DNA from: a virus
Length of the DNA stretch: 42,904 bases
Virus record (IMG/VR): IMGVR_UViG_3300032287_000447
Location: 1 to 42,904 of that record
Reading direction: 5' to 3' (one strand)
Part shown: in pieces, positions 131-42,904 of the stretch
Numbering within the stretch: position 1 is the first letter of the stretch
Layout: the number at the start of each line of letters is the position of its first letter
Notes under the pieces: model-generated
The model's database searches: none
What the model saw: the letters and a program-made list of their open reading frames with translations, nothing else
What the model was told of the DNA's origin: nothing
Translations under genes and position numbers: made by a program

Positions 131-194
131 TTTACACCCGACGGTAGACCATATATGGTTGTGCCATACCCAATCAGGGGTACCAAACAGGAGG
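131..194 (+). promoter_or_regulatory. Promoter plus 5' hairpin leader cassette P1
   Basis: The -35 box is TTTACA (131-136), followed by a 17-bp spacer and a weak -10 box TATGGT (154-159). A hairpin follows at 167-182: stem TACCC/GGGTA, loop AATCAG. The SD AGGAGG (189-194) lies 7 bases before the ATG at 202. This is the only plus-strand copy of a cassette found five times on the minus strand. The outer pair here is T-A, where other copies have A-T or C-G, which supports a folded RNA. The predicted transcript would start at about base 166, so the hairpin would sit at its 5' end. Confidence 0.7.
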
Positions 195-201
195 CAATAC
201 A

Positions 202-381
202 ATGACAACATCAACACCAACATATGCTGAACTTCTTAAGGAAGTATCAATAACAATTACACCTAATGATGCTGCTTTTCTTACAGCAGTTCTTGGTTCA
301 TATGTTTATCAAAACAAATTGGAAAACAACGAATTGTGCCGCGATTTAATGGAACGCCTTAACCCAAAGGCAGGTTGCTAA
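202..381 (+). CDS. Small hypothetical protein, 59 aa
   Basis: This 59-residue reading frame starts at ATG 202, 7 bases after a strong AGGAGG. It is the first gene after the P1 promoter-hairpin cassette and is followed two bases later by the next plus-strand gene. The sequence is polar, begins with a Thr/Ser-rich stretch, and ends with a predicted helical segment containing Cys46 and a C-terminal Cys. I recognise no family. The leader shared with the early minus-strand genes suggests early expression. Confidence 0.75.
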   Translation: MTTSTPTYAELLKEVSITITPNDAAFLTAVLGSYVYQNKLENNELCRDLMERLNPKAGC

Positions 382-20432: not shown

Positions 20433-20433
20433 T

Positions 20434-28513: not shown

Positions 28514-28520
28514 AGATAGA

Positions 28521-31544: not shown

Positions 31545-32148
31545 TAAGCATCCTGCCTAATAATCTCCACTTAGCACTATCCCATGAAGTGCCACACGCC
31601 CTGCATTTAATATCATCAAAATCTGTAAGCGTTTTTGGGTTGATAAGTAATTTAGCGCCACATACTTCGCCCTTATCATCTTGTGCTGGGCAAGTGCCAA
31701 TTGGCACCATTTCAGACTTAAATCCAAGCACACTCGAAATCCTATTGCTTACACTATTTATGTCTTTGGTTAAAGATTCAATTTCCTCATAGTGCTTAAA
31801 TACCCATTCTGATTGACCTGTAAGATATTTAACGGTCATTTTAATGCGGTTAATTTCTTCGCCTCTAAATGTAATACGAGTATGTTCTCGCACCACTCGG
31901 ATTTTGGATTCATGCGCCATTAAAGGTTTGCTGATGCCGCCAGTACGCAAGTCAAGGGTCTCTAATTGGACTGGGATAGGCGGTGTCTTACTTCCGCCTA
32001 CCCTTTCGCCATATCCCTTACTAGGTTGCAATTCCTTTTCGAGTTCATAATACTTACTAGGAAATGACTTTAACTTAGTTATAGCATAATCCCAGCATGA
32101 TTCGCATAATGAACGCTCTGTGGTCTTGCGGCACAGTACGCATTTCAT
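31531..32148 (-). CDS. Double zinc-ribbon protein, 205 aa
   Basis: The N-terminus has CxxC...CxxC (CVLCRKTTERSLCESC), and the C-terminus a second cluster (GTCPAQ...VCGAK...CRACGTSW). The middle is helical (LTKDINSVSNRISS). This type of protein is common in actinophages next to excisionase-like HTH proteins. It probably binds nucleic acid; I know of no defined activity. ATG 32148 overlaps the upstream HTH gene (ATGA). Confidence 0.7.
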   Translation of the reverse strand: MKCVLCRKTTERSLCESCWDYAITKLKSFPSKYYELEKELQPSKGYGERVGGSKTPPIPVQLETLDLRTGGISKPLMAHESKIRVVREHTRITFRGEEINRIKMTVKYLTGQSEWVFKHYEEIESLTKDINSVSNRISSVLGFKSEMVPIGTCPAQDDKGEVCGAKLLINPKTLTDFDDIKCRACGTSWDSAKWRLLGRMLSADF

Positions 32149-32312
32149 GATGAACGATTGTCTCGTTTCGTCTTATACGCTTCCACTTGGTTGCGGTCAT
32201 AGATAGCATTTTTACCAGACTTGCCTACCCATGAAAGTTGCTTGCGGTATGTAATTTGGTACAAATTATTTCTAGTGATTCCTAGATATTCGCACACTTC
32301 TTGACTTGTCAT
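32145..32312 (-). CDS. Excisionase-type small HTH protein, 55 aa
   Basis: ATG 32312 overlaps the stop of ssb (TAATG). The 55-aa product has TSQEVCEYLGITRNNLYQI followed by AIYDRNQVEAYK, the HTH_17 pattern with recognition helix and wing. It is coupled to ssb and to the zinc-ribbon gene, so it is expressed with the replication/recombination functions. A regulator or DNA-architecture role is inferred. Confidence 0.65.
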   Translation of the reverse strand: MTSQEVCEYLGITRNNLYQITYRKQLSWVGKSGKNAIYDRNQVEAYKTKRDNRSS

Positions 32313-32704
32313 TAAAACGGCCACCCTGCTTCCTCCGTCTTGGTTTCCTTATATGGATTTTCCATCTTGCGCTTTAGCGTACCGACAACCGCAATCATCT
32401 TGGCTCTTACTTCAAAGCCTGATTTGGTTTCTCCATCACGCCCGCGATATTCAAAAGCCTTTAAGTCACCTTTAACAAGTAACTTAGTTCCTTTAAGCGG
32501 TGTATCGCCTAGCCATTCCGCAAGTTCACCAGTAGCAGATACTTTCCACCATACTGTCTCGCCTGTAGTCCATTCGCCATTTTTGAACTCGCGTGGAGTC
32601 TCAGCAAGACTAAAATTGCCTACAGCAAAATCGCCCTTTGAACCTTTAATAAATTTAAGTTCTGCATCGCTACCAGCATTACCTACGATTTCAATTTGTG
32701 CCAT
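32312..32704 (-). CDS. ssb: Single-stranded DNA-binding protein
   Basis: I chose ATG 32704, three codons inside a GTG-started frame, because GAAGGTGG lies at good distance. The 130-aa protein has an OB-fold pattern: IEIVGNAGSDAELKFI, then FSLAETPREF, WWKVSATGELAEWL and LLVKGDLKAFEY. The C-terminal tip EEAGWPF is acidic and ends in Pro-Phe, similar to the DDDIPF tail that binds partner proteins. It would protect ssDNA during recombination-dependent replication. Confidence 0.85.
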   Translation of the reverse strand: MAQIEIVGNAGSDAELKFIKGSKGDFAVGNFSLAETPREFKNGEWTTGETVWWKVSATGELAEWLGDTPLKGTKLLVKGDLKAFEYRGRDGETKSGFEVRAKMIAVVGTLKRKMENPYKETKTEEAGWPF

Positions 32705-33029
32705 TTTTTCCACCTTCTTCTATATAGGAGCCTTCGTTATCCAACAATACCTTACTTCCGTCTGAAAGGTGTAAGGGATACTCGGCGGGTTGCGCCCAAC
32801 TTGGAACTATCCAACCCATCTCGATTGACTTGGCAGGATTCATGTGGATGGCATCTGTTCCCATATTGTGGCATTTGTGATGTACTGCCATAAGATTGCA
32901 GACCTCATCTTTACCGCCTTGCGATTTTAAGCGCCTATGGTGCAAAGCAAAGTCGTAACCTGAATTGCCACATTTTTCGCAGTAGTTACCTGCGCGGTTA
33001 AGTACCGCTTCCGCTATTCGTCTATCCAT
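32691..33029 (-). CDS. HNH endonuclease
   Basis: ATG 33029 is taken as the start because it overlaps the end of the protease-like gene. The 112-aa protein has the HNH core: C17-C20, H30-H31 (ALHHRRLKSQGG), N45 (VCNLMAVHHKCHN) with H50/H51, C53 and H54. This betabetaalpha-Me nuclease may cut DNA during packaging or homing. It is far from the terminase genes. It overlaps ssb by 14 bases. Confidence 0.85.
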   Translation of the reverse strand: MDRRIAEAVLNRAGNYCEKCGNSGYDFALHHRRLKSQGGKDEVCNLMAVHHKCHNMGTDAIHMNPAKSIEMGWIVPSWAQPAEYPLHLSDGSKVLLDNEGSYIEEGGKNGTN

Positions 33030-33585
33030 TAGATACCATAAATTTGATTTCGCCTCCTGTAAAAACATCATACTTGGATGCCACCTTTAATGCCACGCGT
33101 ATGTAATTTTTTGCTCTGGTAATTGATTCAGATTGGTTTGCCTTCAACGCCTCCAATGCACCTAAAGCAAATCTTTCGCCTGACCCTGCAACATATAAAT
33201 TGTTGGTCGTTCTTTCCCACCCATAATCTTCGTCAATTCTATAGATAAGACCACGCACACAGACTATAAAAATGTTGTCTTGCAGTACAGAACCTTCGTC
33301 TTTTTTGTATTCATAGTCGGCGGCATCAAAACATTTGCGTATGGAAGGAATCAGGATACTGGTTACATACTTGTCCATATTGTCTATTTTTATGGCGGGG
33401 CTTACCCACGCATGTTCCAAAAGATTTATCCCGCGAACGGCACCAGCACCTGCGACTATTACCTCTCCGTTTTTAAAGATTTTGCCAGCAGGGATATCTA
33501 TTGCAAATCCATCTTCCCCTGATGATTGTGAATCTGCTCCTATTACCGCCCAACCGTTGCCTTCAATGGCGGCGATAGTGGTCAT
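33022..33585 (-). CDS. HslV/proteasome beta-like Ntn hydrolase
   Basis: The 187-aa protein begins M-TTIAAIEGNGWAVIGAD, matching the HslV/proteasome beta N-terminus, where Met is removed and Thr1 becomes the nucleophile. Counting from that Thr, Asp17 (GAD) is in place and a Lys lies at 34 (PAGKIF; Lys33 in HslV). The segments VIVAGAGAVRGINLLE and YVAGSGERFALGALEAL also match HslV (the GSGG...A region). It may degrade host or phage proteins or act on assembly. No HslU ATPase is visible here, so it may use a host ATPase or work alone. The leader is very short. Confidence 0.8.
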   Translation of the reverse strand: MTTIAAIEGNGWAVIGADSQSSGEDGFAIDIPAGKIFKNGEVIVAGAGAVRGINLLEHAWVSPAIKIDNMDKYVTSILIPSIRKCFDAADYEYKKDEGSVLQDNIFIVCVRGLIYRIDEDYGWERTTNNLYVAGSGERFALGALEALKANQSESITRAKNYIRVALKVASKYDVFTGGEIKFMVSNG

Positions 33586-33610
33586 ACCTTGATTCTACCC
33601 TAGACATGAG

Positions 33611-33641
33611 AAAACCCACCGGGAGGCAAATCGCGGTGGGT
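33611..33641 (-). terminator. Probable terminator between transglycosylase-like and HslV-like genes
   Basis: The minus strand reads ACCCACCG, loop of 12 bases, CGGTGGGT, then TTTTC: an 8-bp GC-rich stem with a short U tract. It lies 70-100 bases after the stop of the secreted transglycosylase-like gene and about 26 bases before the HslV-like start. A second weaker inverted repeat lies at about 33672-33700. Together they may separate two transcription units. Confidence 0.65.
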
Positions 33642-33709
33642 CTCTCTCGTTACCATCTTCTCCGGCTGGCAACGCTGTCGCTGGGAATCAGCCCTACGAC
33701 AAATCTATC

Positions 33710-34129
33710 TTAATACCAAGAGCGCTTATCCCAAAATCTTTTGGCTCCGCATGGAGTTCCATAACGCGACTTGATATAAATCAAACCTTTATTAACTTGT
33801 ACTCTAACGCTTGTGTCGGGGTCAAGTCCAAGTATTTGCGGGATACCACCCGCGTGTACTTTTACCCTCTTACCGCCTCTTACAACCGTTACAGCGTGTT
33901 TGTTCTTGGCGTCTGGGCGCCAATTTGACTCTTTAGTCCAAAGTTGTTCAAGGCATCCCCATTGACTTTGAGCCCAACCAAAAGAACCTAACTGATTCTT
34001 TGCGTGGAACTTTGCCGCCATTGGTGTCCTTGTGTCCACCATCTTAGGGCTTTGGGCTAAGGCTGGTGTTGCTAACAAAATCCCTACCGCGATTGCGGCT
34101 ACTGCTAGGAATCTTGCGCGAAACTTCAG
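33710..34129 (-). CDS. Secreted lytic-transglycosylase-like protein (CTG start)
   Basis: The frame becomes sensible only from a CTG at 34129, which overlaps the TGA of the gene before it (CTGA) with GGTGAGGA just upstream. From there the protein begins (M)KFRARFLAVAAIAVGI then LLATPALAQ, a complete signal peptide with cleavage after ALA. The only other start visible, TTG 34078, would remove most of the signal. The mature part has W..LW.KESNWRPDA (likely catalytic Glu) and GGIPQILG...YIKSRYGTP, which resembles SLT/aggregation-promoting-factor domains. It probably cuts peptidoglycan outside the membrane. Confidence 0.7.
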   Translation of the reverse strand: MKFRARFLAVAAIAVGILLATPALAQSPKMVDTRTPMAAKFHAKNQLGSFGWAQSQWGCLEQLWTKESNWRPDAKNKHAVTVVRGGKRVKVHAGGIPQILGLDPDTSVRVQVNKGLIYIKSRYGTPCGAKRFWDKRSWY

Positions 34130-34302
34130 TCCTCACCTTTCTCCGTTTCCTTTACGCCTAACATGATTCCTCCCATTTGATTAGATTCAGCATCGCTGTC
34201 TCCTTTCGCTATTGGTTTTTTGCATGCGGGACATTCCAACCATGAAGTCATAATCCACATTCCACAACCTGTGCAATGGTCTACATCTTCTACGGTTGCC
34301 AT
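34126..34302 (-). CDS. Small zinc-ribbon protein, 58 aa
   Basis: ATG 34302 lies inside the 3' end of the kinase gene (13-base overlap). The 58-aa product has HCTGCGMW and ECPACKKP, a CxxC...CxxC ribbon, followed by an acidic, flexible tail with a GGIM segment. It ends at TGA 34126-34128, which overlaps the CTG start of the next gene. The coupled reading frames on both sides support it. The function is unknown. Confidence 0.7.
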   Translation of the reverse strand: MATVEDVDHCTGCGMWIMTSWLECPACKKPIAKGDSDAESNQMGGIMLGVKETEKGED

Positions 34303-34820
34303 ATTTTGGCTACCTCGTCTCGCAAGTCCTCTATTGTGCCATTGTTAGATACATATTGGTCAAATGACCACGCGTCCATGTCGGTTTCTGAACGGTGCAA
34401 ATTAACTGGTGCATTTTTGTCAATACGGCTTATGCGCCAAATTTGTCCACCGCGCCACTTAATTTCCTCAGCCTCGTTCCTAAATCTTACATCTGGTATA
34501 ACTACCTTATCCGTTTTGGCTGTGTTATGTAAGGTAAGTTCCACCCAGATTTGTGGGTCAATTAACTCACGCCCTACTTCGGTTCCCATTACTTGTAAGA
34601 TACGGCGAACTTCTGGAACTTGTTTAGCAATATCCCAGCCTTCCAAATCAACCACATGGGCTAACCGTAATCCTTCCAGCGTGACAATTGGATTTAGGCG
34701 GTAGCAAGCGTTGCGAATAATGTCGGCAAATCCAATACGCGAGTATCCGTATTCTTCTACCAAGATTTGTGCAACAGTATCTTTACCTACCTGCGCATAA
34801 CCACTAAGTCCAATAATCAC
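34290..34820 (-). CDS. Deoxynucleoside monophosphate kinase-like protein
   Basis: The 176-aa protein has a P-loop GYAQVGKDT (residues 7-15), then FADIIRNACYRLNP (dNMP-kinase-like LID/nucleotide region), QVMGTEVGREL, and VVIPDVRFRNEAE. This pattern fits phage dNMP kinases (T4 gp1-type). It would convert dNMPs to dNDPs, and in phages with modified DNA it can accept unusual bases. It starts at GTG 34820, sharing a base with the stop of the 42-aa gene. Confidence 0.8.
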   Translation of the reverse strand: MIIGLSGYAQVGKDTVAQILVEEYGYSRIGFADIIRNACYRLNPIVTLEGLRLAHVVDLEGWDIAKQVPEVRRILQVMGTEVGRELIDPQIWVELTLHNTAKTDKVVIPDVRFRNEAEEIKWRGGQIWRISRIDKNAPVNLHRSETDMDAWSFDQYVSNNGTIEDLRDEVAKIWQP

Positions 34821-34948
34821 TAGAACTCTACCCCCACATACCAGAAGCCTAAATCAAGTTGTATGCCGTACTTGGAAATATCAAATCCAATTCCAAAACC
34901 TGTTTTGCGCCCACGCGCATACCAAAAAGTACCAATTTTCTTTTCCAT
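34820..34948 (-). CDS. Small aromatic hypothetical protein, 42 aa
   Basis: ATG 34948 follows GGAGGGTAATT. The 42-aa protein reads KIGTFWYARGRKTGFG...DLGFWYVGVEF. It is rich in Trp, Tyr, Phe and Gly and looks like a small beta hairpin protein. A very similar pattern (FWYARG...LGFWY) recurs in other phages to my recollection, without assigned function. Its stop overlaps the kinase start. Confidence 0.65.
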   Translation of the reverse strand: MEKKIGTFWYARGRKTGFGIGFDISKYGIQLDLGFWYVGVEF

Positions 34949-34950
34949 AA

Positions 34951-35124
34951 TTACCCTCCATTTTTATAGAAGCCAGTACCTTTGAAATGCGCTGGCGTTG
35001 GTGAAAATACCTTTGACATATTGTTGCCGCATAAAGGACAAGATGGGATAGTTCCATCATGGAATCCTTGTTGTATCTCTATCATTGTCTTATCGCTATC
35101 ACAACGAAATTCATAAGTCGGCAT
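34951..35124 (-). CDS. FmdB-type zinc-ribbon protein, 57 aa
   Basis: I chose ATG 35124, which overlaps the stop of the winged-helix gene (TAATG). The 57-aa protein opens PTYEFRCDSD and has IPSCPLCGNNMSKVFSP, the FmdB/zinc-ribbon regulator pattern, although the first CxxC is reduced to one Cys. It then has an AHFKGTGFY tail, as in bacterial FmdB proteins. It is probably a small nucleic-acid or protein-interaction module. Confidence 0.75.
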   Translation of the reverse strand: MPTYEFRCDSDKTMIEIQQGFHDGTIPSCPLCGNNMSKVFSPTPAHFKGTGFYKNGG

Positions 35125-35438
35125 TAGAATAACTGCCCTTCGTATTCGTATGTGACCCAAATGATGCAGTCGTTGCCACCAGCATTTTTGCGAGTGCGGT
35201 TGGAATCCACCAGCAGACCATCCTTTTCTAATGTCTTACGAGTAGGGCGAATGGTATCCCCTGACTTATTAAAATGTTCCTGCATTTCTTGGTCTGTTGC
35301 GCCTTCTGCTCCACGACTGGATACAAATGTGAAGATATTTCTACGCCATGACCCTGACTTTAAAAAAAAGGCATCTGCGGCGGCTTGCGAGTTCTTATGC
35401 TTGCCATGTATTACAGCGTTGCGGTCAATCAGACTCAT
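35124..35438 (-). CDS. Winged-helix DNA-binding protein, 104 aa
   Basis: The 104-aa protein has a winged-helix pattern: RRNIFTFVSSRGAEGATDQE, then SGDTIRPTRKTLEKDGLLVD (recognition helix), then SNRTRKNAGGNDCIIWV (wing). It is likely a transcription regulator or a helicase-loader-like DNA binder. It overlaps the upstream gene by 14 bases. Confidence 0.7.
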   Translation of the reverse strand: MSLIDRNAVIHGKHKNSQAAADAFFLKSGSWRRNIFTFVSSRGAEGATDQEMQEHFNKSGDTIRPTRKTLEKDGLLVDSNRTRKNAGGNDCIIWVTYEYEGQLF

Positions 35439-35691
35439 GTTTCGCTCCTAACGCTACATTGGCGCAAATATCCTGAACGGCTAGTAGTGCATTTTCTAGT
35501 CCATTCTTCATAACTCGCTTGCGGTCGCTTGTAAAATCCACCGCGCAAATTTCATCGTAGATACGCCCACGAATCTGTGCTTCTAAAATATGCACCATAA
35601 CCTTAACCGTATCTTGACCTTCTGGTGTGTCCAGAATTAGTTGCCCATCTTTAATTTTCCAATGGTTATCTTTGCAAATAATCTTCATCAT
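35425..35691 (-). CDS. Hypothetical protein, 88 aa
   Basis: The start is ATG 35691 or the adjacent ATG 35688; GGGGG lies 3 and 6 bases before them. The protein begins KIICKDNHWKIKDGQL, then has helices (QDTVKVMVHILEAQIRG, LENALLAVQDICANVALG). I do not recognise a family. It overlaps the upstream membrane micro-ORF by 26 bases and the winged-helix gene by 14. Confidence 0.65.
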   Translation of the reverse strand: MMKIICKDNHWKIKDGQLILDTPEGQDTVKVMVHILEAQIRGRIYDEICAVDFTSDRKRVMKNGLENALLAVQDICANVALGAKHESD

Positions 35692-35776
35692 ATGCCCCCT
35701 TCTCCATGCTAAACATACCAAACAAAATGGCTGGTGTGATGCAAGTTACTGCAACGATTATGATAATTCCTAACAT
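35666..35776 (-). CDS. Membrane micro-ORF, 36 aa
   Basis: The ATG at 35776 overlaps the stop of the 55-aa gene (TAATG). The product is a single hydrophobic segment (LGIIIIVAVTCITPAILF) followed by an acidic tail, so it is a probable one-pass membrane peptide. It overlaps the next gene by 26 bases. Small membrane proteins in early phage regions often act on host processes; the target is unknown. Confidence 0.55.
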   Translation of the reverse strand: MLGIIIIVAVTCITPAILFGMFSMEKGAYDEDYLQR

Positions 35777-35943
35777 TATGCCACCACCAGTTCAATGTCA
35801 TGCCATATCCATTCGCTGTCACCTTTGATTACCTGCATAGCCAGTTTTTGCTTGACCGCATAGTTATTGGCTTCTTCGCGTGTAGCAAATTCGGCAACAT
35901 CTTCGATAAGAGTTTGATGTACCGTGATTTTATATTGCGCCAT
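35776..35943 (-). CDS. Small hypothetical protein, 55 aa
   Basis: ATG 35943 follows immediately on the stop of no longer gene but lies 1 base below the stop region of the gene at 35944-36198. The 55-aa product has an alpha/beta pattern: YKITVHQTLIEDVAEFATREEA, then a helix and WIWHDIELVV. It looks like a small compact domain with strand-helix-strand. No family is recognised. It ends with a TAATG overlap with the membrane micro-ORF. Confidence 0.65.
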   Translation of the reverse strand: MAQYKITVHQTLIEDVAEFATREEANNYAVKQKLAMQVIKGDSEWIWHDIELVVA

Positions 35944-36198
35944 TTATGCCACCAATTCCTTCATCATGTCGTTAAGTTCTGGATAGTCCAATTTGTCTGA
36001 CATATATTCCACAGCATCAGGGGTAACCATATTGGTCATATACATGCTAAGAATAAATCCAATGTATGGATTGTCCTTGTCTGGGTTGCACTTCATAAAA
36101 GCAACCGCCGCAAGATATAGCGGTTCCGTGTTGTTAATCCACAATGATACATTCCATGTATCGTAGTTCTTCCAACCTTCGTAAGTTGTGTCGCTCAT
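35944..36198 (-). CDS. Conserved phage protein (DUF7249-like), 84 aa
   Basis: The 84-aa protein has WKNYDTWNVSLWINNTEPLY, the N-Y-(D/E)-T-W-N-V-x-L-W-I pattern of a family found in many phages and some bacterial mobile regions. The C-terminal half is helical (PDAVEYMSDKLDYPELNDMM). The family has no settled function to my knowledge. It shares one base with the gene before (36198). Confidence 0.75.
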   Translation of the reverse strand: MSDTTYEGWKNYDTWNVSLWINNTEPLYLAAVAFMKCNPDKDNPYIGFILSMYMTNMVTPDAVEYMSDKLDYPELNDMMKELVA

Positions 36199-36491
36199 TA
36201 TGCACCTACCAATTCAAAGCCAGTTTCCGCAACTGTGTAAGTTGCATCATTAATTCTGATTGAATCACCGATTGAAAGTGCGGTGTGTGTGCGAGTTGGT
36301 GAAAGAAGTGGTTCGATAATGTTCCAGAGATTTCCGCTATATAGATTTGTTTGCTGATATACAACATTGAAGAATTGATTGCGGTTTTCATCTGTGATAT
36401 CGAATTCGGTTTCAAATTCAACTGATGAGATAAAACGATTGCGCTCTGGCTTGTTACCAAAAGCCTTCCAAGTGATTTCGACTGTTGCCAT
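36198..36491 (-). CDS. Hypothetical protein, 97 aa, first gene after leader P2
   Basis: I chose ATG 36491, which follows AGGAGG by 6 bases; the longer frame runs through the promoter. The 97-aa protein begins ATVEITWKAFGNKPER and has alternating strands (FISSVEFETEFDIT) and a helix around NLWNIIEPLL. No family is recognised. It is the first gene of the P2 transcript, so it should be expressed strongly and early. Confidence 0.75.
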   Translation of the reverse strand: MATVEITWKAFGNKPERNRFISSVEFETEFDITDENRNQFFNVVYQQTNLYSGNLWNIIEPLLSPTRTHTALSIGDSIRINDATYTVAETGFELVGA

Positions 36492-36497
36492 TTTTTG

Positions 36498-36565
36498 CCT
36501 CCTGTTTAGTACCACCCCTGATTGGGTGATAGGTATAACTATATATTGAATTGTAAGAAAGTAAA
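36498..36565 (-). promoter_or_regulatory. Promoter plus 5' hairpin leader cassette P2
   Basis: On the minus strand: -35 TTTACT (36565-36560), 16-bp spacer, -10 TATAGT (36543-36538), hairpin CACCC-AATCAG-GGGTG (36528-36513), SD AGGAGG (36503-36498), ATG 36491. The outer hairpin pair is C-G, where others have A-T or T-A, a covariation. The predicted start of transcription lies 2-4 bases before the hairpin. Confidence 0.8.
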
Positions 36566-36567
36566 CC

Positions 36568-36933
36568 TTATCCTTCGATAATTTGGAAATATGAGCGGTA
36601 TGAATCCTCTGTGACCTTGTACTGAACATTGTTTTTAAGAGCCCAAAGTTCCAACTTCAACATAAAGTTTTGCTTTGCCATGGTATAGATTGCTTGGTTA
36701 ATGTAATCGTTGAGACGAACAGAAGGTGCATCGCTTATGATTTCGATGCGAGTTAAATCTCCAAAACCATAATTCTTTGGAGTAGCCTTGATTCCGTATC
36801 CGTTGCGGCGGTATTGATTATCTTCGTTGTAGTAAGTAACGCCAATTTCCTGTGCAATTTTTTGTACTGATTGCCATGTCATAATCTTCATGCCAGTTGT
36901 GTTTGAGTTGCGTGTTGTTGTTGCTGTTGTCAT
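36568..36933 (-). CDS. Hypothetical protein, 121 aa, after leader P3
   Basis: ATG 36933 lies 6 bases after GGAGG. The 121-aa protein has a Thr-rich start, the helix WQSVQKIAQEIGVTYYN, a Gly/Tyr-rich segment (GYGIKATPKNYGFGD), and a C-terminal segment NNVQYKVTEDSYRSYF. No family is recognised. It is alone in the P3 unit, and its 3' end is directly followed by the P2 promoter. Confidence 0.75.
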   Translation of the reverse strand: MTTATTTRNSNTTGMKIMTWQSVQKIAQEIGVTYYNEDNQYRRNGYGIKATPKNYGFGDLTRIEIISDAPSVRLNDYINQAIYTMAKQNFMLKLELWALKNNVQYKVTEDSYRSYFQIIEG

Positions 36934-36939
36934 TTGGTG

Positions 36940-37005
36940 CCTCCTTGTTGGTAACCCCTGATTGGGTTATGGTGCAATTCTAAAACGACAACAGGGAAAA
37001 GTAAA
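36940..37005 (-). promoter_or_regulatory. Promoter plus 5' hairpin leader cassette P3
   Basis: On the minus strand: -35 TTTACT (37005-37000), 17-bp spacer, -10 TAGAAT (36982-36977), hairpin TAACCC-AATCAG-GGGTTA (36969-36952, six pairs), GGAGG (36944-36940), ATG 36933. Tandem GTTATC/GTTACC sites lie upstream at 37024-37040. It follows the rusA stop. Confidence 0.8.
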
Positions 37006-37023
37006 CATCTACGGCAGATTTTT

Positions 37024-37040
37024 GGTAACTTTTTGATAAC
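37024..37040 (-). promoter_or_regulatory. Tandem GTTATC/GTTACC sites upstream of P3
   Basis: On the minus strand GTTATC (37040-37035) and GTTACC (37029-37024) are spaced exactly 11 bp, 18 bases upstream of the P3 -35 box. The pair resembles GTTATC/GTTATC upstream of P6 and GTTAAC/GTTAAC upstream of P1. Regulator binding is inferred. Confidence 0.5.
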
Positions 37041-37042
37041 TT

Positions 37043-37465
37043 TTAGAGGTCGTCAAAACCGCCTGTCAATTCAATGGATACCCCTTGTGGCGACCCGTAC
37101 TCCTTAGTAGCGTTGATGCTGACCACCTGACTGTCATCCACATAAGCAACCCCTGTGAGGGCATCCAGTATGGAGCGTATTTGTTTGTCAAGGTCTGGTG
37201 GTACGGTTGGCAACCGCCTAGATACGGTTCTCGGTCGGTCATATCGGAATCGCATGGTTACTATGATTGGTCCGTCTATCGGCGTACAACCCGCCTTAGC
37301 CGCCGCCACCGCCACCAACTTGCGCCATGCCATAAGGTCGGCAGATTTATTGTGGACTATGCGGTTATTAAATGCACGCATAGAACCCTGCTGGATAGGT
37401 TTGCCTTCTACTTTGAAGGCAATTGTCAAATCTCTAGACTTACCGTCTCGCCCTGTAGTAGACAC
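37043..37465 (-). CDS. rusA: RusA-like Holliday junction resolvase
   Basis: The 140-aa protein has the RusA pattern: FKVEGKPIQQGSMRAF near residue 17, then the catalytic acidic residues D91-x-D93-K94 (PPDLDKQIRSILDAL), D101 and D110-D111 (VAYVDDSQVV). It resolves branched DNA before packaging. It starts at GTG 37465, overlapping the upstream gene by 40 bases. The nearby annealing protein, Cas4-like nuclease and SSB make up the rest of the recombination set. Confidence 0.88.
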   Translation of the reverse strand: MSTTGRDGKSRDLTIAFKVEGKPIQQGSMRAFNNRIVHNKSADLMAWRKLVAVAAAKAGCTPIDGPIIVTMRFRYDRPRTVSRRLPTVPPDLDKQIRSILDALTGVAYVDDSQVVSINATKEYGSPQGVSIELTGGFDDL

Positions 37466-37617
37466 TTTCTAACCTTACTACCAGTTGCATCATGAAGTTG
37501 CATCTCGTAGCCATAGCCTTCGGGTTCTGTATAGTCCACGACAAACCGATTGTTGTTGATGACCACAGTATCGCCAGCCTGAACCGCGCCTACATCTATA
37601 TGTCTCAGAACACTCAT
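37426..37617 (-). CDS. Small beta-rich hypothetical protein, 63 aa
   Basis: ATG 37617 follows AGGAGG by 6 bases. The 63-aa product (VGAVQAGDTVVINNNRFVVDY then YEMQLHDATG) looks like a small beta barrel such as an SH3/Hint-like module. I recognise no family. It is translated into rusA with a 40-base overlap. Confidence 0.65.
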   Translation of the reverse strand: MSVLRHIDVGAVQAGDTVVINNNRFVVDYTEPEGYGYEMQLHDATGSKVRKCLLQGETVSLEI

Positions 37618-37713
37618 TTGTTCCTCCTATAGTCTTACAGAATACATTACTTACCAGTAATACGCCTTACAGGGCGGAATTAGCGGCTCGGCGTGTCGTT
37701 GGGTGTAATAACC
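37618..37713. other. Short intergenic stretch with two small inverted repeats
   Basis: ATTAC-TTACCA-GTAAT (37646-37661) and CGCC-TTACAG-GGCG (37663-37676) are small hairpins between two minus-strand genes. No U tract follows, and no cassette of the P1-P6 type is present. They may be weak attenuators or operators; I see no other feature here. Confidence 0.45.
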
Positions 37714-38079
37714 CTACCCCTCATCTGTTTGTGTCTCTATCGGCGTTGTACGGGGTCGGTTCAAAGCCTCACGGACATATTGAGGCATTGGTATTGCGAA
37801 GGGGTTTTCGTATTCTTGCGGGTCAAATACAGGCGGAATGTTGGTTGGTTTTTCCGCAGGTGTCTTTAGTTTTTTTGCCGCCATCAACAATGTTGCCCGC
37901 GATAAAGGCATCCCATCTAATGCAACGGACTCAACAAGCGGCAGAACTTTCTCAAAAGTTGTTTCTTTTAGAATTGACTGCAACTGACCAGCCATTTGTC
38001 CCCGCGCTGGCGCAATATCCCCTGTGTAGTTTCTAAAATACACTTTGATAAGTTCTGCCACCTGTTGGTTAATACTCAT
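37714..38079 (-). CDS. Hypothetical protein, 121 aa (DNA-replication region)
   Basis: The 121-aa protein is helical in its first 75 residues (QQVAELIKVYFRNYTGDIAP, LQSILKETTFEKVLPLVESV), with a Pro-rich, flexible C-terminus (PPVFDPQEYENPF, MPQYVREALNRPRTTP). Its form recalls replisome-organiser or helicase-loader accessory proteins, but no motif proves it. The ATG at 38079 overlaps the WhiB stop (ATGA). Confidence 0.6.
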   Translation of the reverse strand: MSINQQVAELIKVYFRNYTGDIAPARGQMAGQLQSILKETTFEKVLPLVESVALDGMPLSRATLLMAAKKLKTPAEKPTNIPPVFDPQEYENPFAIPMPQYVREALNRPRTTPIETQTDEG

Positions 38080-38444
38080 TTGTTAAAAGTAAAGTCCCTC
38101 TCTACAGATAAGACGGTCTGCACTAAACTAGAAATCCTTACACTTATTTGTGCAAGGTCTCTGCGTAACCAGCCTATGACCCTAGTATCAAATTTACCTG
38201 CATAGATATGTCTGCGTTCATCTTCCGATAAGCCGCCCCAGAATCCGTAAGGTTCATATGATGTGGCTACCTTCAAACAATCTATTTGTATTGGACAAGC
38301 AAAACACATTCTGCGCAGATGATTGTAATTTAATCCTTCTGCCAGCAAATCGGTACGCGCAGTATAAAAAAGGTCGGTATCCAACCCTCTGCATGATGCC
38401 CTTTGCCATTCTACTTTGTCTCTGTTGATTACTTCCCTGTGCAT
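38076..38444 (-). CDS. whiB: WhiB-family Fe-S transcription regulator
   Basis: The 122-aa protein has the four cysteines of WhiB: C18 and C47-x2-C50-x5-C56, followed by the turn motif G67-F68-W69-G70-G71, then a basic C-terminus with RRDLAQISVR. WhiB proteins carry a [4Fe-4S] cluster and regulate host transcription via the sigma factor. They occur only in Actinobacteria and their phages, which fixes the host group. The phage TM4 WhiB blocks host septation and superinfection, so a similar role is possible here. Confidence 0.9.
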   Translation of the reverse strand: MHREVINRDKVEWQRASCRGLDTDLFYTARTDLLAEGLNYNHLRRMCFACPIQIDCLKVATSYEPYGFWGGLSEDERRHIYAGKFDTRVIGWLRRDLAQISVRISSLVQTVLSVERDFTFNK

Positions 38445-39079
38445 CCATTAACCCCTGACGCATCATAGTATTCGCAGAAGTTACTGCAAAAGAATTTAGG
38501 GCGCTCGGGTTCTGGTGGATAAACAGTATTTTGTATGTCTTTAATCCATTGAATTCCCAGTAACGCTTTTTCGCGGTCATATGGTTCTGAATAAACTTTG
38601 ACATCTTTCTGCCAACCGTCACGCGGAATTGCAACCAAGCAAACTTCGTGAACCACATGTCCTGCTTCCTCTATGAGATATCCATAAAGTTGCACTTGCA
38701 TTTTTTGTTGTTCGTTAGGGAATTCTGCAAGTTTTTTCTTGGTGGTAGTTTTCCAATCCACCACCGTACCAGTTGATTTAATGAATAGGTCACAATGCCC
38801 ACGCAAATCAGGTGTGCGGAACCCTTGTTCAATTAAGAATTCCTCGCCAAATGGGTCAGCGTTTTTCATCGCCTCTGCGATAGTTGCATGAACGGCTGTG
38901 CCAATAATTGCCGCAAGCGATTCGGTATTTGGATTAGTCTTGGGAACTTGCCGCAGAATACTCCATGCTTGTCGCTTACACCCATAAACTGATGATGCAC
39001 CAAGTTCGGTCTGCTGTGACCTTTCCCGCGCATCATCATGTTCGTTTAGGGCTACCTTTAATAAGGATGCAATATCCAT
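38429..39079 (-). CDS. Cas4/RecB-like PD-(D/E)XK nuclease
   Basis: The 216-aa protein has an N-terminal Cys (SVYGCKRQAW), then H (GTAVHATIAEA), the acidic pair RGHCDLFI and TVVDWKTTTKKK (D-x-K core), QVQLYGYL (QxxxY), and C-terminal cysteines (FCSNFCEYYD...GC). These make up a Cas4/AddB-type iron-sulfur nuclease. In phages it works with annealing proteins to make ssDNA ends. The gene overlaps whiB by 16 bases. Confidence 0.85.
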   Translation of the reverse strand: MDIASLLKVALNEHDDARERSQQTELGASSVYGCKRQAWSILRQVPKTNPNTESLAAIIGTAVHATIAEAMKNADPFGEEFLIEQGFRTPDLRGHCDLFIKSTGTVVDWKTTTKKKLAEFPNEQQKMQVQLYGYLIEEAGHVVHEVCLVAIPRDGWQKDVKVYSEPYDREKALLGIQWIKDIQNTVYPPEPERPKFFCSNFCEYYDASGVNGCTGK

Positions 39080-39426
39080 TAAATCTCCATGCTTGCGCGT
39101 ACTGAGACTGAGATAGAGCGAGCAATATCTACCTGAGTGCGGATACGATTCGCATTTGCGCGAGCCGCTTTTACAGATGATTCCGCTATGGATAAGTTCA
39201 TATGTAGGTCTGCATTTTCAATTAATGCTTGGTCGTCTCGTTGAACGCTAGTCAATTTATGGTCAGGATGTGCAACTGCCATGCGTGAACGAGCCATAGA
39301 GATTTCAAGGCTTGCTTTTGCTGTGTGATATGTGTGTTCGCAAGCAACTAAATCTTGGTGCGCCTCGTCAATTTCTTTTGATAAATCCAACAGGCGCTTT
39401 TCGACCTGCATAGGTGTCAGACTCAT
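39079..39426 (-). CDS. Helical hypothetical protein of the recombination unit, 115 aa
   Basis: The 115-aa protein is mostly helical with heptad-like spacing (VEKRLLDLSKEIDEAHQDLV and SIAESSVKAARANANRIRT). It sits between the Cas4-like nuclease and the ERF-like annealing gene with overlapping ends, so it is probably a partner or accessory of those two. No family is recognised. Confidence 0.65.
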   Translation of the reverse strand: MSLTPMQVEKRLLDLSKEIDEAHQDLVACEHTYHTAKASLEISMARSRMAVAHPDHKLTSVQRDDQALIENADLHMNLSIAESSVKAARANANRIRTQVDIARSISVSVRASMEI

Positions 39427-39659
39427 ATTCCCTCCCCAGTAGGTACTGCCTTAAGTTTTGTTGTCTTTTGCATTTCCAATTTAGGAAGTATCGCGGCGGC
39501 ATCTACCGCCACCTCGTCTGCATCAGGTGCAAGTTTTAATCCAGCCATTGCTAACTTGCGCAAGATAATTGCTTCGCCTATTCCCCAGTTCTCGCTAAGG
39601 ACATGTGCAAAAAACATTTGTTGTTGGACAGCAAGGACTCTGCCTTCAGGATGACTCAT
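39423..39659 (-). CDS. Small hypothetical protein, 78 aa
   Basis: I chose ATG 39659, which overlaps the stop of the membrane protein gene (ATGA). The 78-aa protein begins SHPEGRVLAVQQQMFFAHVL, has the helix EAIILRKLAMAGLKLAP, and ends with Lys/Thr-rich sequence. No family is recognised. It is translationally coupled on both sides. Confidence 0.65.
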   Translation of the reverse strand: MSHPEGRVLAVQQQMFFAHVLSENWGIGEAIILRKLAMAGLKLAPDADEVAVDAAAILPKLEMQKTTKLKAVPTGEGI

Positions 39660-39841
39660 GAAAATACCGCCACCGCACCAACATAAACATAAAAGACTCC
39701 AACAAAAAATGGAATCCAAATTGCCATGCGGCAGACTGAGCGGAACTTAAAGTATTCGCGGGTGCGGGCAGGTGCATTGCGCAACCAATAGGTATACCAA
39801 TGCTCGTCATTCCAAATTTCAATAAAGGTTGGTGATTGCAT
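39656..39841 (-). CDS. Small membrane protein, 61 aa
   Basis: The 61-aa protein has a polar, aromatic N-terminus (EIWNDEHWYTYWLRNAP) with arginines and one clear C-terminal membrane segment (MAIWIPFFVGVFYVYVGAVAVF). It may be a membrane-attached early protein. It is placed between the ERF-like gene and the 78-aa gene. Confidence 0.65.
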   Translation of the reverse strand: MQSPTFIEIWNDEHWYTYWLRNAPARTREYFKFRSVCRMAIWIPFFVGVFYVYVGAVAVFS

Positions 39842-39843
39842 GA

Positions 39844-40389
39844 TTACGCCTCCAATGCTTTCTTGCGAGCGCCAATAAGTCCATTGACCGAAAGTCCGTT
39901 AATGGTTACATGAAGGATTCCTGCCTCCTGCGCACCTGTGTAAAAGTTGCGAAGTTCCTCGATGGTTTGAATATCGTTGATTTGTTCGATTGCGGTAACT
40001 GCAAGTGCTTCCAGTTCAGGTGACTGTGTAGGTTTTTGCATACGCTCAACCTTTTCCATCTCTTCACGCGAAGGTCGAGTCTTGCGTGGGTCTGCACCCA
40101 TGAATCCCATATTTGCTAACGCTCGCCCAGTTGCGCTTGTGGATGCATTTTCGAGGGCTGAGGTTTTGTTTACTGGACCGTTACCTACAATTTCTTCTGC
40201 CACATCTTGCGCCATTAAAATCTCACCAACATAAATTTGTGACATCATAATGTACTGAATTGGTCGGTGAAAATCATCTCGGATTGTTTCAAGCGGTGTA
40301 TTGATAATGCGCAAATTGGGATACATTTCGCGGGCGCGTATCGTGCGTTCCGCAACTGTCTCGTATGAATCTAGGTCAAACTTTGCCAT
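39844..40389 (-). CDS. ERF/Sak-type single-strand annealing protein
   Basis: The 181-aa protein has YETVAERTIRAREMYPN near the N-terminus and ALENASTSATGRALANMGF (residues ~77-95), a hallmark of phage ssDNA-annealing proteins. A Pro/Glu-rich linker and a helical C-terminus (about 125-181, with ELRNFYTGAQEAG) follow. It is the first gene after leader P4, so it is expressed early. With SSB, the Cas4-like nuclease and RusA it forms the recombination pathway. Confidence 0.8.
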   Translation of the reverse strand: MAKFDLDSYETVAERTIRAREMYPNLRIINTPLETIRDDFHRPIQYIMMSQIYVGEILMAQDVAEEIVGNGPVNKTSALENASTSATGRALANMGFMGADPRKTRPSREEMEKVERMQKPTQSPELEALAVTAIEQINDIQTIEELRNFYTGAQEAGILHVTINGLSVNGLIGARKKALEA

Positions 40390-40395
40390 GCTGTG

Positions 40396-40465
40396 CCTCC
40401 TTAATTAACTTACTGGACGCCATGTCCGTAAGGATGAATCTATATTGAATTGTGTTAAATGTAAA
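40396..40465 (-). promoter_or_regulatory. Promoter plus 5' hairpin leader cassette P4 (different hairpin)
   Basis: On the minus strand: -35 TTTACA (40465-40460), 15-bp spacer, -10 TATAGA (40444-40439), then a hairpin CTTAC-GGAC-ATGGC-GTCC-A-GTAAG (40432-40409) with one bulged base, then AAGGAGG (40402-40396) and ATG 40389. The stem sequence is unrelated to the other five copies, but its position, 6 bases after the -10 box, is the same. This supports selection for a 5' hairpin as such. Confidence 0.8.
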
Positions 40466-40910
40466 CAACCTCGCGGTTTGTGCCTAGGTGATATGTGTTG
40501 GGCGATTCGCACCATACATAAGGCTCGTCTGGACCAGATTCCGCAAACAGAGCATAATGAATTGGGTCTTTACGGTACAAATTGGACTTATGACTATTGT
40601 GTAATGGGTCATAGTCATACCACCAAGGTTTGATTTCATCAAAAAATTCGTAATAGTCTAGGAATTCTTTTAGCAAAGAATCCTTATATCCGCGATGCAT
40701 CCATTCGTTACACATAACAGCACCATACTTGCACAGATAGTTTTCATACCCGCGCCACATTACTGTAGCAGGATGATTGACCCAACCTTTACTTTCTCCA
40801 CATAATGCCCTGATAATCTGGTACGCTTCAACGCGTTGTTTGCCTAAGCGTTTATTGTCTAAAATCTTTGCTGATTCTTTAAATGATGTATATGGTAGAA
40901 AGGTTTGCAT
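40455..40910 (-). CDS. MSMEG_6728-family / pyrimidine-dimer-glycosylase-like protein
   Basis: I chose ATG 40910 as the start. The 151-aa protein reads MQTFLPYTSFKESAKILD, then NKRLGKQRVEAYQII, WVNHPATVMWRGYENYL, and CNEWMHRGYKD, the pattern of the MSMEG_6728 family, related to phage pyrimidine-dimer DNA glycosylases. It may repair or cut damaged DNA. Its 3' end overlaps the P4 promoter, so the two are compactly arranged. Confidence 0.75.
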   Translation of the reverse strand: MQTFLPYTSFKESAKILDNKRLGKQRVEAYQIIRALCGESKGWVNHPATVMWRGYENYLCKYGAVMCNEWMHRGYKDSLLKEFLDYYEFFDEIKPWWYDYDPLHNSHKSNLYRKDPIHYALFAESGPDEPYVWCESPNTYHLGTNREVVYI

Positions 40911-40911
40911 T

Positions 40912-41121
40912 TTATGCCGCAAACTTATGTTCTAAATGTAGATGCTCTTTGACTGCACCTAAAGTAAGAAAGCGCGTTGAACCTTGACTGCCATCTGGGT
41001 AACATATATACCAGCCTTTGGAATTCTTTTCGCCATATTGTTTACTGGTATAAAAGACCGCAATCTCACCAGTTGATGCTTTGTATTGTCGTGATTGGAT
41101 TTTTGTATATGTGATTGTCAT
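40912..41121 (-). CDS. Small hypothetical protein, 69 aa
   Basis: The 69-aa protein has short strands (TITYTKIQSRQYKAS, GEIAVFYTSKQYG, GWYICYPDGSQ) and a final helix (LTLGAVKEHLHLEHKF). It is likely a compact alpha/beta domain. No family is recognised. It overlaps the upstream gene by 4 bases (ATGA). Confidence 0.65.
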   Translation of the reverse strand: MTITYTKIQSRQYKASTGEIAVFYTSKQYGEKNSKGWYICYPDGSQGSTRFLTLGAVKEHLHLEHKFAA

Positions 41122-41384
41122 TTGTTAACCGCCTTCCGAGCGTTTTCGATTTTGTCCATTTGCCAGTTAAAGGATTCAGTTACCTGTTCCCAGATTCCAT
41201 CATCCGCGTGCATTTCATAAACTACCTTTTGCCATTCTTCATCTGTGATTTCAGGTTGATTCTCACCATCTTCAAATGCTTGCCAGATATGGTCATTTGC
41301 TTCCGTTCTATCCATATGCACAACAAAGATTTGCGCATCATCAGGTAGGTCTTTGATAAGTTCCTTTAGGTCTGCGACTCGCAT
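41118..41384 (-). CDS. Acidic hypothetical protein, 88 aa
   Basis: The 88-aa, strongly acidic protein reads MRVADLKELIKDLPDDAQIFV, followed by a helical part (DEEWQKVVYEMHADDGIW). The start resembles many phage proteins with a 'LKELIxxLPDDA' opening that have no known function. Acidity is compatible with DNA mimicry, but this is speculation. Confidence 0.65.
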   Translation of the reverse strand: MRVADLKELIKDLPDDAQIFVVHMDRTEANDHIWQAFEDGENQPEITDEEWQKVVYEMHADDGIWEQVTESFNWQMDKIENARKAVNK

Positions 41385-41385
41385 T

Positions 41386-41781
41386 TTATGCCTCCATTCC
41401 TATTGTCAATTTGATATCGGTAATTTTACCAAGTTCCGTAACTGTGTCGTCATGTTCTATCTTGTAGATATTCCAGCCTTTGTCCCAGAGATAGAAGAAC
41501 TCTGTGCCGCCTTTGTCGTTATCCAAAAATTGCTGGAAATCGTCATAAATGGTCGGTACAATTTTTGTTGCTTGCGTTACGAGGTAGGTATCTTCCTCGG
41601 TAGGCGCACCGCGCAATGATGAACGGTCACCCAAGTCCATTAGTTTTTGGATTGTTTCTTCATCTTTGTAATTAAGCCAAAGTTGTAGTCCAACATATTC
41701 AGGATATCCATCCCAGTGGCAATAGATAACCTGTATCTTGCCATCATCCTTTTTGATTCCAATAAGTGAGCGTGTTGCCAT
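41386..41781 (-). CDS. Conserved phage protein, 131 aa
   Basis: The 131-aa protein starts ATRSLIGIKKDDGKIQVIYCHWDGYPEYVG, of which the pattern TRSxIG...YCHWDGYP is frequent in phages and plasmids. LMDLGDRSSLRGAP and FFYLWDKGWNIYK also fit the family. The family occurs next to antirestriction and small early genes, and its activity is unknown to me. It is the third gene after leader P5. Confidence 0.75.
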   Translation of the reverse strand: MATRSLIGIKKDDGKIQVIYCHWDGYPEYVGLQLWLNYKDEETIQKLMDLGDRSSLRGAPTEEDTYLVTQATKIVPTIYDDFQQFLDNDKGGTEFFYLWDKGWNIYKIEHDDTVTELGKITDIKLTIGMEA

Positions 41782-41782
41782 T

Positions 41783-41968
41783 TTATTTTGCCTCCAATTG
41801 TTTGATTTGTTCTTGCAACTCTGCGATGCGTTCTTCTTTTGTTCGGTGGGGTTTTCCGCCTAAGTCAATAACCGCTTGGCGATAGAATTGTGTGTATTCG
41901 TCACGATATTTATTGCGCAAAAGTTTGGTGGCAATTACCTGCGCTTTGACCGCCAAAGGTGTAGCCAT
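41783..41968 (-). CDS. Small basic coiled-coil hypothetical protein, 61 aa
   Basis: The 61-aa protein is helical with many Lys/Arg (AQVIATKLLRNKYRDEYTQF) and a C-terminal coiled-coil (KEERIAELQEQIKQLEAK). It could bind nucleic acid or dimerise. No family is recognised. ATG 41968 directly follows the stop of the 37-aa gene. Confidence 0.65.
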   Translation of the reverse strand: MATPLAVKAQVIATKLLRNKYRDEYTQFYRQAVIDLGGKPHRTKEERIAELQEQIKQLEAK

Positions 41969-42082
41969 TTATTTTGCCACCTTAAGGTCAGACATAATTT
42001 GGTGTGTCTGGTCAATTGCATAAAGCAATGCCATTACATCTGCGAGTGAATCATTTGTTGCTGTACCATTTTTTGTAGCCAT
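41969..42082 (-). CDS. Micro-ORF after leader P5, 37 aa
   Basis: ATG 42082 follows AAGGAGG at ideal spacing and is the first start after the P5 hairpin. The 37-aa product (ATKNGTATNDSLADVMALLY then AIDQTHQIMSDLKVAK) is an amphipathic helix after a polar start. The strong leader supports real expression. The function is unknown. Confidence 0.65.
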   Translation of the reverse strand: MATKNGTATNDSLADVMALLYAIDQTHQIMSDLKVAK

Positions 42083-42088
42083 TTTGTG

Positions 42089-42155
42089 CCTCCTTGTTAT
42101 GAACCCCTGATTGGGTTGTTGGTTTAACTATAAATTGAAATGGTGGGGAAGTAAA
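42089..42155 (-). promoter_or_regulatory. Promoter plus 5' hairpin leader cassette P5
   Basis: On the minus strand: -35 TTTACT (42155-42150), 17-bp spacer, -10 TATAGT (42132-42127), hairpin AACCC-AATCAG-GGGTT (42117-42102), AAGGAGG (42095-42089), ATG 42082. It closely matches P6 and P3. The -35 box lies just after the stop of the 81-aa gene. Confidence 0.8.
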
Positions 42156-42162
42156 CCATTTC

Positions 42163-42408
42163 CTATGACAATTTTACGAGCAGATTTGGTGCAAATTTGT
42201 GGGCGCAGGTTGACCCGATTGGGAAGCAGCCTTGTGAATTTGCCGCATCTGAGTTGGGAACAATTACTTCCCAGTCAGTATTGACTTCAAAGTAAAGTGG
42301 ATTTGCGCCAAGTGCGCGACCACATTCGGTGCAAAGTGATTCCATAGAATCCAATGCCTTGCGGTTAAGTGGTGCCGCATCTCCTGCATTGTATTTGTAT
42401 GTTGCCAT
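42163..42408 (-). CDS. Zinc-binding hypothetical protein, 81 aa, after leader P6
   Basis: ATG 42408 lies 7 bases after GGAGG. The 81-aa protein has SLCTECGRALGANPLYFEVN (CxxC) and QGCFPIGSTCAHKF, so four cysteines and a histidine may bind zinc. It is the first and only gene of the P6 unit before P5 begins. No family is named, but the Cys pattern suggests a nucleic-acid or protein contact role. Confidence 0.75.
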   Translation of the reverse strand: MATYKYNAGDAAPLNRKALDSMESLCTECGRALGANPLYFEVNTDWEVIVPNSDAANSQGCFPIGSTCAHKFAPNLLVKLS

Positions 42409-42415
42409 TTTATTG

Positions 42416-42483
42416 CCTCCATCTTTTGATAACCCCTGATTAGGTTATGTGATAACTATAAATTGCGGGACAGACAATGTAAA
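42416..42483 (-). promoter_or_regulatory. Promoter plus 5' hairpin leader cassette P6
   Basis: On the minus strand: -35 TTTACA (42483-42478), 17-bp spacer, -10 TATAGT (42460-42455), hairpin TAACCT-AATCAG-GGGTTA (42447-42430), GGAGG (42420-42416), ATG 42408. In the stem, C is changed to T opposite G, which keeps pairing as a G-U. Tandem GTTATC sites lie 8 bases upstream. Confidence 0.8.
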
Positions 42484-42491
42484 CATTTCCA

Positions 42492-42508
42492 GATAACTTT
42501 TTGATAAC
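42492..42508 (-). promoter_or_regulatory. Tandem GTTATC sites upstream of P6
   Basis: On the minus strand GTTATC occurs at 42508-42503 and 42497-42492, 11 bp apart, embedded in A-runs and 8 bases upstream of the P6 -35 box. The distance differs by about one helical turn from that at P1 (19) and P3 (18), so all would lie on a similar face of the helix. A-rich flanks may also act as an UP element. Confidence 0.5.
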
Positions 42509-42540
42509 TTTTTTCCTCTTGGTAGCCTTGAGGGAAACGC

Positions 42541-42904
42541 CCAAACCCCTAGATTGAGCATTTGTTACCTATTGGTATATGGTGCGCCTTCTACCGAGTT
42601 GGTCGGAACTCGGATATGGCTGGCACCCATAGTCACCCACCGTTAGATGGTGTGTTTTACCCTGTCTGCCAGACAGGCGCGATTGGAAGCGATAACAATC
42701 GAGTATCAACGGAATCCGTACCACGAACCGCCTACGGCTGTCTAACCCACCTTTTGGTACATATGGCGTGGTTGGGTGCAAACCCCCTATTCCTATACCG
42801 AGAACCTCAGGTAGACGGACTGGCTGGATTTCAGCCTTTCCCTGCCCGCTTCCTAGGTTCCGGACTGACAAATCTGTTAACCTAAAGTTAACCTTCTAAA
42901 CGCA
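42541..42904. other. Hairpin-dense, comparatively GC-rich noncoding region (continues to about base 94)
   Basis: Between the divergent P6 and P1 cassettes there is no convincing gene for about 430 bases across the junction. Perfect or near-perfect stems are CCGAGTT/AACTCGG (42594-42613), CCTGTCT/AGACAGG (42661-42677), CGATTG/CAATCG (42680-42701), ACGGA/TCCGT (42709-42719), ACCACG/CGTGGT (42720-42772), GGCTG/CAGCC, and GAACCT/AGGTTC in the terminal repeat. The GC content looks higher than the rest of the genome. A structured RNA, replication origin or packaging site is possible. No known RNA family is recognised, and the strand is undetermined. Confidence 0.6.
42782..42904. repeat. Terminal direct repeat, right copy
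   Basis: Identical to bases 1-123, with an offset of 42781. The unique genome length is therefore about 42,781 bases if the ends join. The copy includes hairpins of the noncoding region and the tandem GTTAAC sites upstream of P1. Confidence 0.95.

Follow-up and report, generated by a model that had tools for sequence, protein, structure and literature searches.

We analysed the IMG/VR virus record IMGVR_UViG_3300032287_000447, a stretch of 42,904 bases (43.9% G+C) that is referred to as a whole as the window. It encodes portal, terminase and tail proteins, RusA, SSB, an exonuclease and tRNA-Gln and, outside the structural genes, carries six cassettes in which a short hairpin stands between a promoter-like sequence and the Shine-Dalgarno (SD) sequence of a gene (Table 1). 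An initial annotation had placed six such cassettes on both strands, and all six were found there. Five of them, as it had also noted, share the loop AATCAG, and these run in the order TTTAC(A/T), 16-17 bp, a TATAGT-like box, 6-9 nucleotides (nt), a hairpin with a stem of 5-8 bp, (A)GGAGGCA and ATG. The common order described for all copies applies to the promoter layout and the SD of the six, but the remaining copy (cassette 4, 40396-40465) has a different hairpin.

The AATCAG cassettes stand out from the rest of the window. While AATCAG by itself is unremarkable (35 matches, 23.6 expected), the record contains exactly five instances of AATCAGGGG followed by GGAGG within 3-20 nt and none of the reversed control pattern. 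A covariance model, trained partly on these same five copies, recovered exactly these five in the window at 22-28 bits, with the next-best match at 10.5 bits. The leader layout was not seen at further promoter-like matches in the window with comparable scores. In most predicted folds of the leaders, the SD was open or weakly paired.

For comparison, we used related IMG/VR phages (G and L numbers; several are fragments), gathered by a scan with the exonuclease alignment (80 viral loci) and, for further ones, by a scan for the loop and SD pattern. Core genes are common to the window and G001, G002, G003, G005 and G007, with large terminases 66-92% identical. In total, the main hairpin kind is represented by 31 distinct copies with the loop consensus A-N-(A/T)-C-(A/G)-G, a consensus that arises partly by construction, having been part of the search rule; some relatives have a loop of seven bases. 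The loop is AATCAG in the window and G001, ACACGG or ATACGG in G002, L002, L005 and G005, and AAACGG or AGACGG in L059-L065, L131 and L146, while the branch of G003, L066 and L067 has shorter loops with (A)ACGG on a hairpin in the equivalent place. Searching viral contigs with a strict promoter pattern returned only the near-identical L033 and one contig resembling chance. A 123-bp direct repeat is common to both ends of the window, and therefore the genome is probably circular or circularly permuted; on a circular map, cassettes 1 and 2 would be divergent neighbours ~430 bp apart (42484-42904 plus 1-130). Divergent pairs over ~430-500 bp were also found in L059 (7648(-)/8149(+)) and L064 (1157(-)/1650(+)).

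Table 1. Features of the six cassettes. Bits are covariance-model scores; aa, amino acids; G and L numbers denote related phages.
Feature	Position	Strand	Details
Promoter-like sequence, cassette 1	131..159	+	TTTACA-17-TATGGT
Hairpin 1	167..182	+	TACCC[AATCAG]GGGTA; 7 nt past -10 box; predicted fold; 22.1 bits
SD and 59-aa gene	189..381	+	AGGAGG (189-194), ATG 202; hairpin also at orthologs in G002, G005, L064
Promoter-like sequence, cassette 2	42455..42483	-	TTTACA-17-TATAGT
Hairpin 2	42429..42448	-	ATAACCT[AATCAG]GGGTTAT, U-G closing pair; 6 nt past -10 box; predicted fold; 25.4 bits
SD and 81-aa gene	42163..42420	-	GGAGG, ATG 42408; hairpin also at orthologs in G002, G005
Promoter-like sequence, cassette 3	42127..42155	-	TTTACT-17-TATAGT
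Hairpin 3	42102..42117	-	AACCC[AATCAG]GGGTT; 9 nt past -10 box; predicted fold; 22.4 bits
SD and 37-aa gene	41969..42094	-	AGGAGG, ATG 42082; hairpin also at orthologs in G001, L002, L005
Promoter-like sequence, cassette 4	40437..40465	-	TTTACA-15-TATAGA (alternatively -17-TAGATT)
Second hairpin type, cassette 4	40409..40432	-	CTTAC-GGAC[ATGGC]GTCC-A-GTAAG; predicted fold
SD and 181-aa gene	39844..40402	-	AAGGAGG; unknown family (phrog_11717)
Promoter-like sequence, cassette 5	36977..37005	-	TTTACT-17-TAGAAT
Hairpin 5	36952..36969	-	TAACCC[AATCAG]GGGTTA; 7 nt past -10 box; predicted fold; 28.1 bits
SD and 121-aa gene	36568..36945	-	AGGAGG, ATG 36933; no family match
Promoter-like sequence, cassette 6	36538..36565	-	TTTACT-16-TATAGT
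Hairpin 6	36510..36531	-	TATCACCC[AATCAG]GGGTGGTA, one U-G pair; 6 nt past -10 box; predicted fold; 27.2 bits
SD and 97-aa gene	36198..36503	-	AGGAGG, ATG 36491

Leaders chosen by loop, SD and open reading frame (ORF), with pairing ignored, had a strong stem (stem score ≥12) in 22 of 25 cases within the phage family; the figure for other viral contigs was 0 of 51. When right arms were exchanged among the copies, a mean of 4.0 of 25 stems was strong (maximum, 10). Under a looser SD rule, strong stems were present at 31 of 51 family sites, whereas other viral contigs had 3 of 60 and bacterial contigs 0 of 27; the remaining 20 family sites score 10 or less and resemble chance matches. Selection by promoter, SD and ORF alone in five family genomes yielded ten leaders, every one with a hairpin 5-9 nt past the -10 box and a loop that fits the consensus. 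Among 22 aligned copies, 94.8% of cells were paired (58.6% when shuffled, 26-50% when slid), two-sided compensatory changes affected six of the seven stem pairs and 45 cells (13.9 when shuffled), and the covariation score was 0.835 (0.195 shuffled, ≤0.142 slid), figures that are inflated because this set had been filtered by stem score. That filter does not affect the loop-selected and promoter-selected tests, and the construction of the loop consensus does not affect the promoter-selected one.

The same pattern is visible gene by gene. Orthologs of the gene at 202 keep the hairpin in four phages with differing stems and loops: TACCC[AATCAG]GGGTA in the window, TATCAAC[ATACGG]GTTGATA in G005, ATAAGC[AAACGG]GCTTAT in L064 and ATCAGC[ACACGG]GCTGGT in G002. 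The G005/L139 ortholog (75%) of the gene at 36491 has TATCAGC[ATACGG]GCTGGTA. The initial annotation had deduced an RNA hairpin maintained by compensatory change from covariation within the one genome. In the window alone this covariation is present but slight, as the innermost pairs hardly vary, and two of the five AATCAG copies, rather than one, contain a G-U pair; the strong evidence comes from the relatives, where the proposal held. It had also reasoned that DNA sequence kept without pairing would favour a DNA operator, and the relatives display the opposite, with sequence lost and pairing kept. Chance origin was rejected on the counts of AATCAGGGG with the SD, the arm exchange, the covariance-model scores and the comparison of the family with other contigs. 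Since the stem changes in sequence yet stays paired while its tip is nearly constant, the RNA shape seems to be selected, and on this comparative evidence we consider a conserved RNA hairpin at the predicted 5' end well established.

The hairpin keeps a near-constant distance from the promoter. Its stem base lies 6 nt past the -10 hexamer in 20 of the 31 copies (the mode) and 5-7 nt past it in 27. One of the other four is at 9 nt, and in three the automatic choice of -10 box or stem end seems wrong: by eye, L054 and L059 have a 6-nt gap with TAGATT and TAGACT, and the core stem of L146 begins ~6 nt after TATACT. Behind the -10 box of a sigma-70-type promoter, a gap of 5-7 nt places the first stem pair near +1, and the mRNA is accordingly expected to open with the hairpin. 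Orthologs of cassette genes that lie inside operons have no hairpin (the 42408-type gene in G001, the 42082-type gene in G005), which indicates that the element belongs to transcript starts and not to particular genes. Nor is it part of one promoter type, as it is kept in L059-L065 with a different -35 motif. This motif, a conserved and partly palindromic AACCGTAAGG(T), replaces TTTACA in L059, L060-L065, L131 and L146, recurs in the other orientation (ACCTTACGGT) in L062 and L067, and may be recognized by another activator or sigma factor.

Two further hairpins were observed. The second type, seen in cassette 4, recurs as GGGC[AAGGC]GCCC in G001 (1857), G002 (16670) and L057 (1447), with one A-U to G-C change relative to the window and with loop and flanks nearly identical across the four phages. 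It precedes the 181-aa gene in the window and L057 (ortholog 44% identical) and a different small gene in G001 and G002. In a distant branch (L095, L113 and L114), a longer hairpin, AGCCCACATTC[..]GAGTGTGGGTT, lies immediately 5' of the SD between conserved flanks and is perhaps an independent leader hairpin.

We propose, with a probability of about 0.55, that the 5'-terminal hairpin serves mainly to protect the mRNA end; the structure is well supported, and we infer the function. Sigma-70-type promoters in the non-structural genome region would initiate transcription on the first stem pair or no more than one or two bases away, so that the mRNA would open with a 5-9 bp stem and a six-base loop, followed ~3-9 nt later by an exposed SD, AGGAGGCA. 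The paired end would resist 5'-end-dependent decay, in which triphosphate removal precedes entry of RNase E or J (putative host enzymes), and this resistance would raise the yield of phage mRNA. By folding on itself the leader would leave the SD free, and the loop would probably be read by a protein as well. A paired 5' end with an open SD is the layout that such a mechanism needs, which supports end protection. There is an actinobacterial precedent in DrrS (MTS1338) of M. tuberculosis, a very stable RNA whose 5' stem-loop starts with the first transcribed base; it is strongly destabilized once at least two unpaired bases are added at its 5' end, and placing the stem-loop after a reporter start site raised expression threefold in M. 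smegmatis (PMC5360333).

Several observations weigh against this interpretation. The +1 position was inferred from the -10 box; hairpin 3, with its 9-nt gap, would leave 2-3 unpaired 5' bases, and in the G003/L067 branch the gap is ~10-11 nt. In L057, the ortholog of the 42408 gene (near 400-497) has a promoter-like GTTTACA/TATAGATT sequence and no hairpin, the one clear exception seen in the family. In a longer fold of leader 1, the SD falls within a weak outer helix. Finally, the loop is the most conserved part of the hairpin, although a pure end-protector needs none conserved, and end protection alone is therefore incomplete.

This last point bears on a possible, though not favoured, account in which the hairpin chiefly recruits an RNA-binding protein from phage or host. 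By recognizing the loop, this protein would control the translation or stability of every transcript with the hairpin, an RNA regulon in which protection is secondary. Consistent with it, all ten leaders chosen blind to loop and pairing have the consensus loop, orthologous leaders carry the loop type of their own genome, and the hairpin lies immediately upstream of the SD. Loops are 97% identical within and 77% between genomes (0 of 2,000 shuffles reach this), compared with only 58% and 47% for 5' arms (37 of 2,000), in a shuffle test that ignores phylogeny. However, shared ancestry or exchange of cassettes within a genome could also produce uniform loops, and no candidate RNA-binding protein appeared among the proteins scanned with Pfam and PHROGs. 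The uniform loop within each genome suggests that a loop-reading factor acts as well. A more specific version, which we regard as rather doubtful, is that a phage-encoded protein reads the six-base loop on several transcripts as a cap-like tag that sets them apart from host mRNA, with loop and protein changing together; its loop groups, by phage lineage, would be AATCAG, A(C/T)ACGG and A(A/G)ACGG.

Three other explanations are less probable. It is unlikely that the hairpin is chiefly a translation-initiation device that frees the SD and provides ribosomes with a standby site or an enhancer: AGGAGGCA is nearly constant before ATG and the SD is largely open in most predicted folds, but such a device leaves unexplained both the phase-locking to the -10 box and the absence of the hairpin before operon-internal genes. 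A location at the very 5' end of transcripts would suit a put/nut-like RNA, which brings about antitermination by modifying RNA polymerase, yet put RNAs are much larger than these hairpins, neighbouring promoters stand only a short way apart (two within 330 bp at 42.1-42.5 kb) and sites resembling terminators are no commoner than in shuffled sequence, which makes this reading very improbable. Least probable is a palindromic DNA operator over the transcription start, bound by a repressor or activator. An inverted repeat at a fixed promoter distance, in several copies per genome, is what an operator would look like, but the pairing is conserved where the half-site sequence is not, and one hairpin kind follows both TTTACA and AACCGTAAGG promoters. 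Moreover, among the six innermost pairs 12 of the 15 non-Watson-Crick cells are G-U, which is easier to reconcile with pairing in RNA than with a palindrome in DNA, although stem-score selection gives G-U some credit.

Hairpins at the 5' end are known from individual bacterial RNAs. Those of ompA and papA in E. coli, studied by Emory, Bouvet and Belasco in 1992 and by Bricker and Belasco in 1999 (both cited in PMC3997798), reportedly hinder decay through 5'-terminal pairing; they concern individual genes and are not known to share a loop motif. DrrS resembles the phage leaders in being actinobacterial and in having a stem from the first transcribed base (here predicted), but it is a single host small RNA, not a repeated phage leader, and is without a shared loop motif or SD cassette. 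The iron-responsive element, a eukaryotic 5'-leader hairpin with a variable stem and a conserved six-base loop, is an analogy only: its sequence is unrelated, and it is bulged, whereas the phage hairpins have no bulge. No Rfam 15 family exceeded its gathering score at the hairpins, with tRNA the only hit in the whole window, and the single match from a permissive Rfam scan of 36000-42904 fell below threshold and outside the hairpins. An intrinsic terminator was rejected because there is no T run on the transcribed strand, an A-rich spacer and the SD follow, and no terminator is listed there on that strand. T4 RegA sites are without structure (PMC3014915), and an operator of that type (unstructured, A+U-rich, at or beside the AUG) was rejected for elements that are structured and upstream of the SD.

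The closest phage comparison is with cluster K mycobacteriophages, from whose start-associated sequence (SAS) the initial annotation rightly distinguished the cassettes in both sequence and layout. SAS is a 13-bp linear motif, GGGATAGGAGCCC, at start codons and containing the SD; extended SAS (ESAS) elements are 17-bp imperfect inverted repeats beside it, in which changes are, according to the authors, generally not supportive of RNA pairing (PMC3203893). Like SAS/ESAS, the hairpins occur in multiple copies in the non-structural half, just 5' of the start codons of different genes. Identity with SAS was rejected, as GGGATAGGAGCCC had no match with up to two mismatches and three matches at three mismatches (4.9 expected). 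With no SAS present, and with hairpin changes that support pairing, opposite to those of ESAS, identity with ESAS was rejected too. We found no description of such phage leaders in the open-access literature. 5'-terminal hairpins that steady individual bacterial RNAs are already known, and what would be new is a loop-conserved hairpin repeated on several phage transcripts.

WhiB-like proteins are described as exclusive to Actinobacteriota and as a key indicator of actinophages (PMC10202952), and the window encodes one at 38076-38444 (PF02467); the host is therefore very likely an actinobacterium, and G+C content and WhiB make a freshwater Nanopelagicales host plausible. The covariance model, applied with strict filters and low power to 395 genomes from the class of Streptomyces nigrescens, gave 0 matches at E ≤ 0.01, which suggests absence of the element from hosts. 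Among the 80 loci listed for the element pattern in bacterial genome contigs, 0 had a strong stem. Exonuclease homologs were not found in such contigs. Among the phage records searched there was no DNA-level relative of window stretch 20,000-40,000, and the best terminase matches were ~52%. Elsewhere in the window, a TET-associated glycosyltransferase (PF20691) adjoins a ParB-like protein (29543-31163, minus strand), which hints at modified DNA bases, and a proteasome-subunit-like protein (PF00227, E 8.6e-6) lies at 33022-33585 (minus strand).

If a phage lineage indeed equips several of its transcripts with one loop-conserved hairpin, this would show that viruses of actinobacteria use a standard RNA 5' structure, and the ~31 natural variants offer material on 5'-end-dependent decay in bacteria other than E. 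coli and B. subtilis. A binding protein can be sought directly by means of the conserved loop, and in these uncultured phages the hairpin is also convenient for marking promoters and predicted transcript starts.

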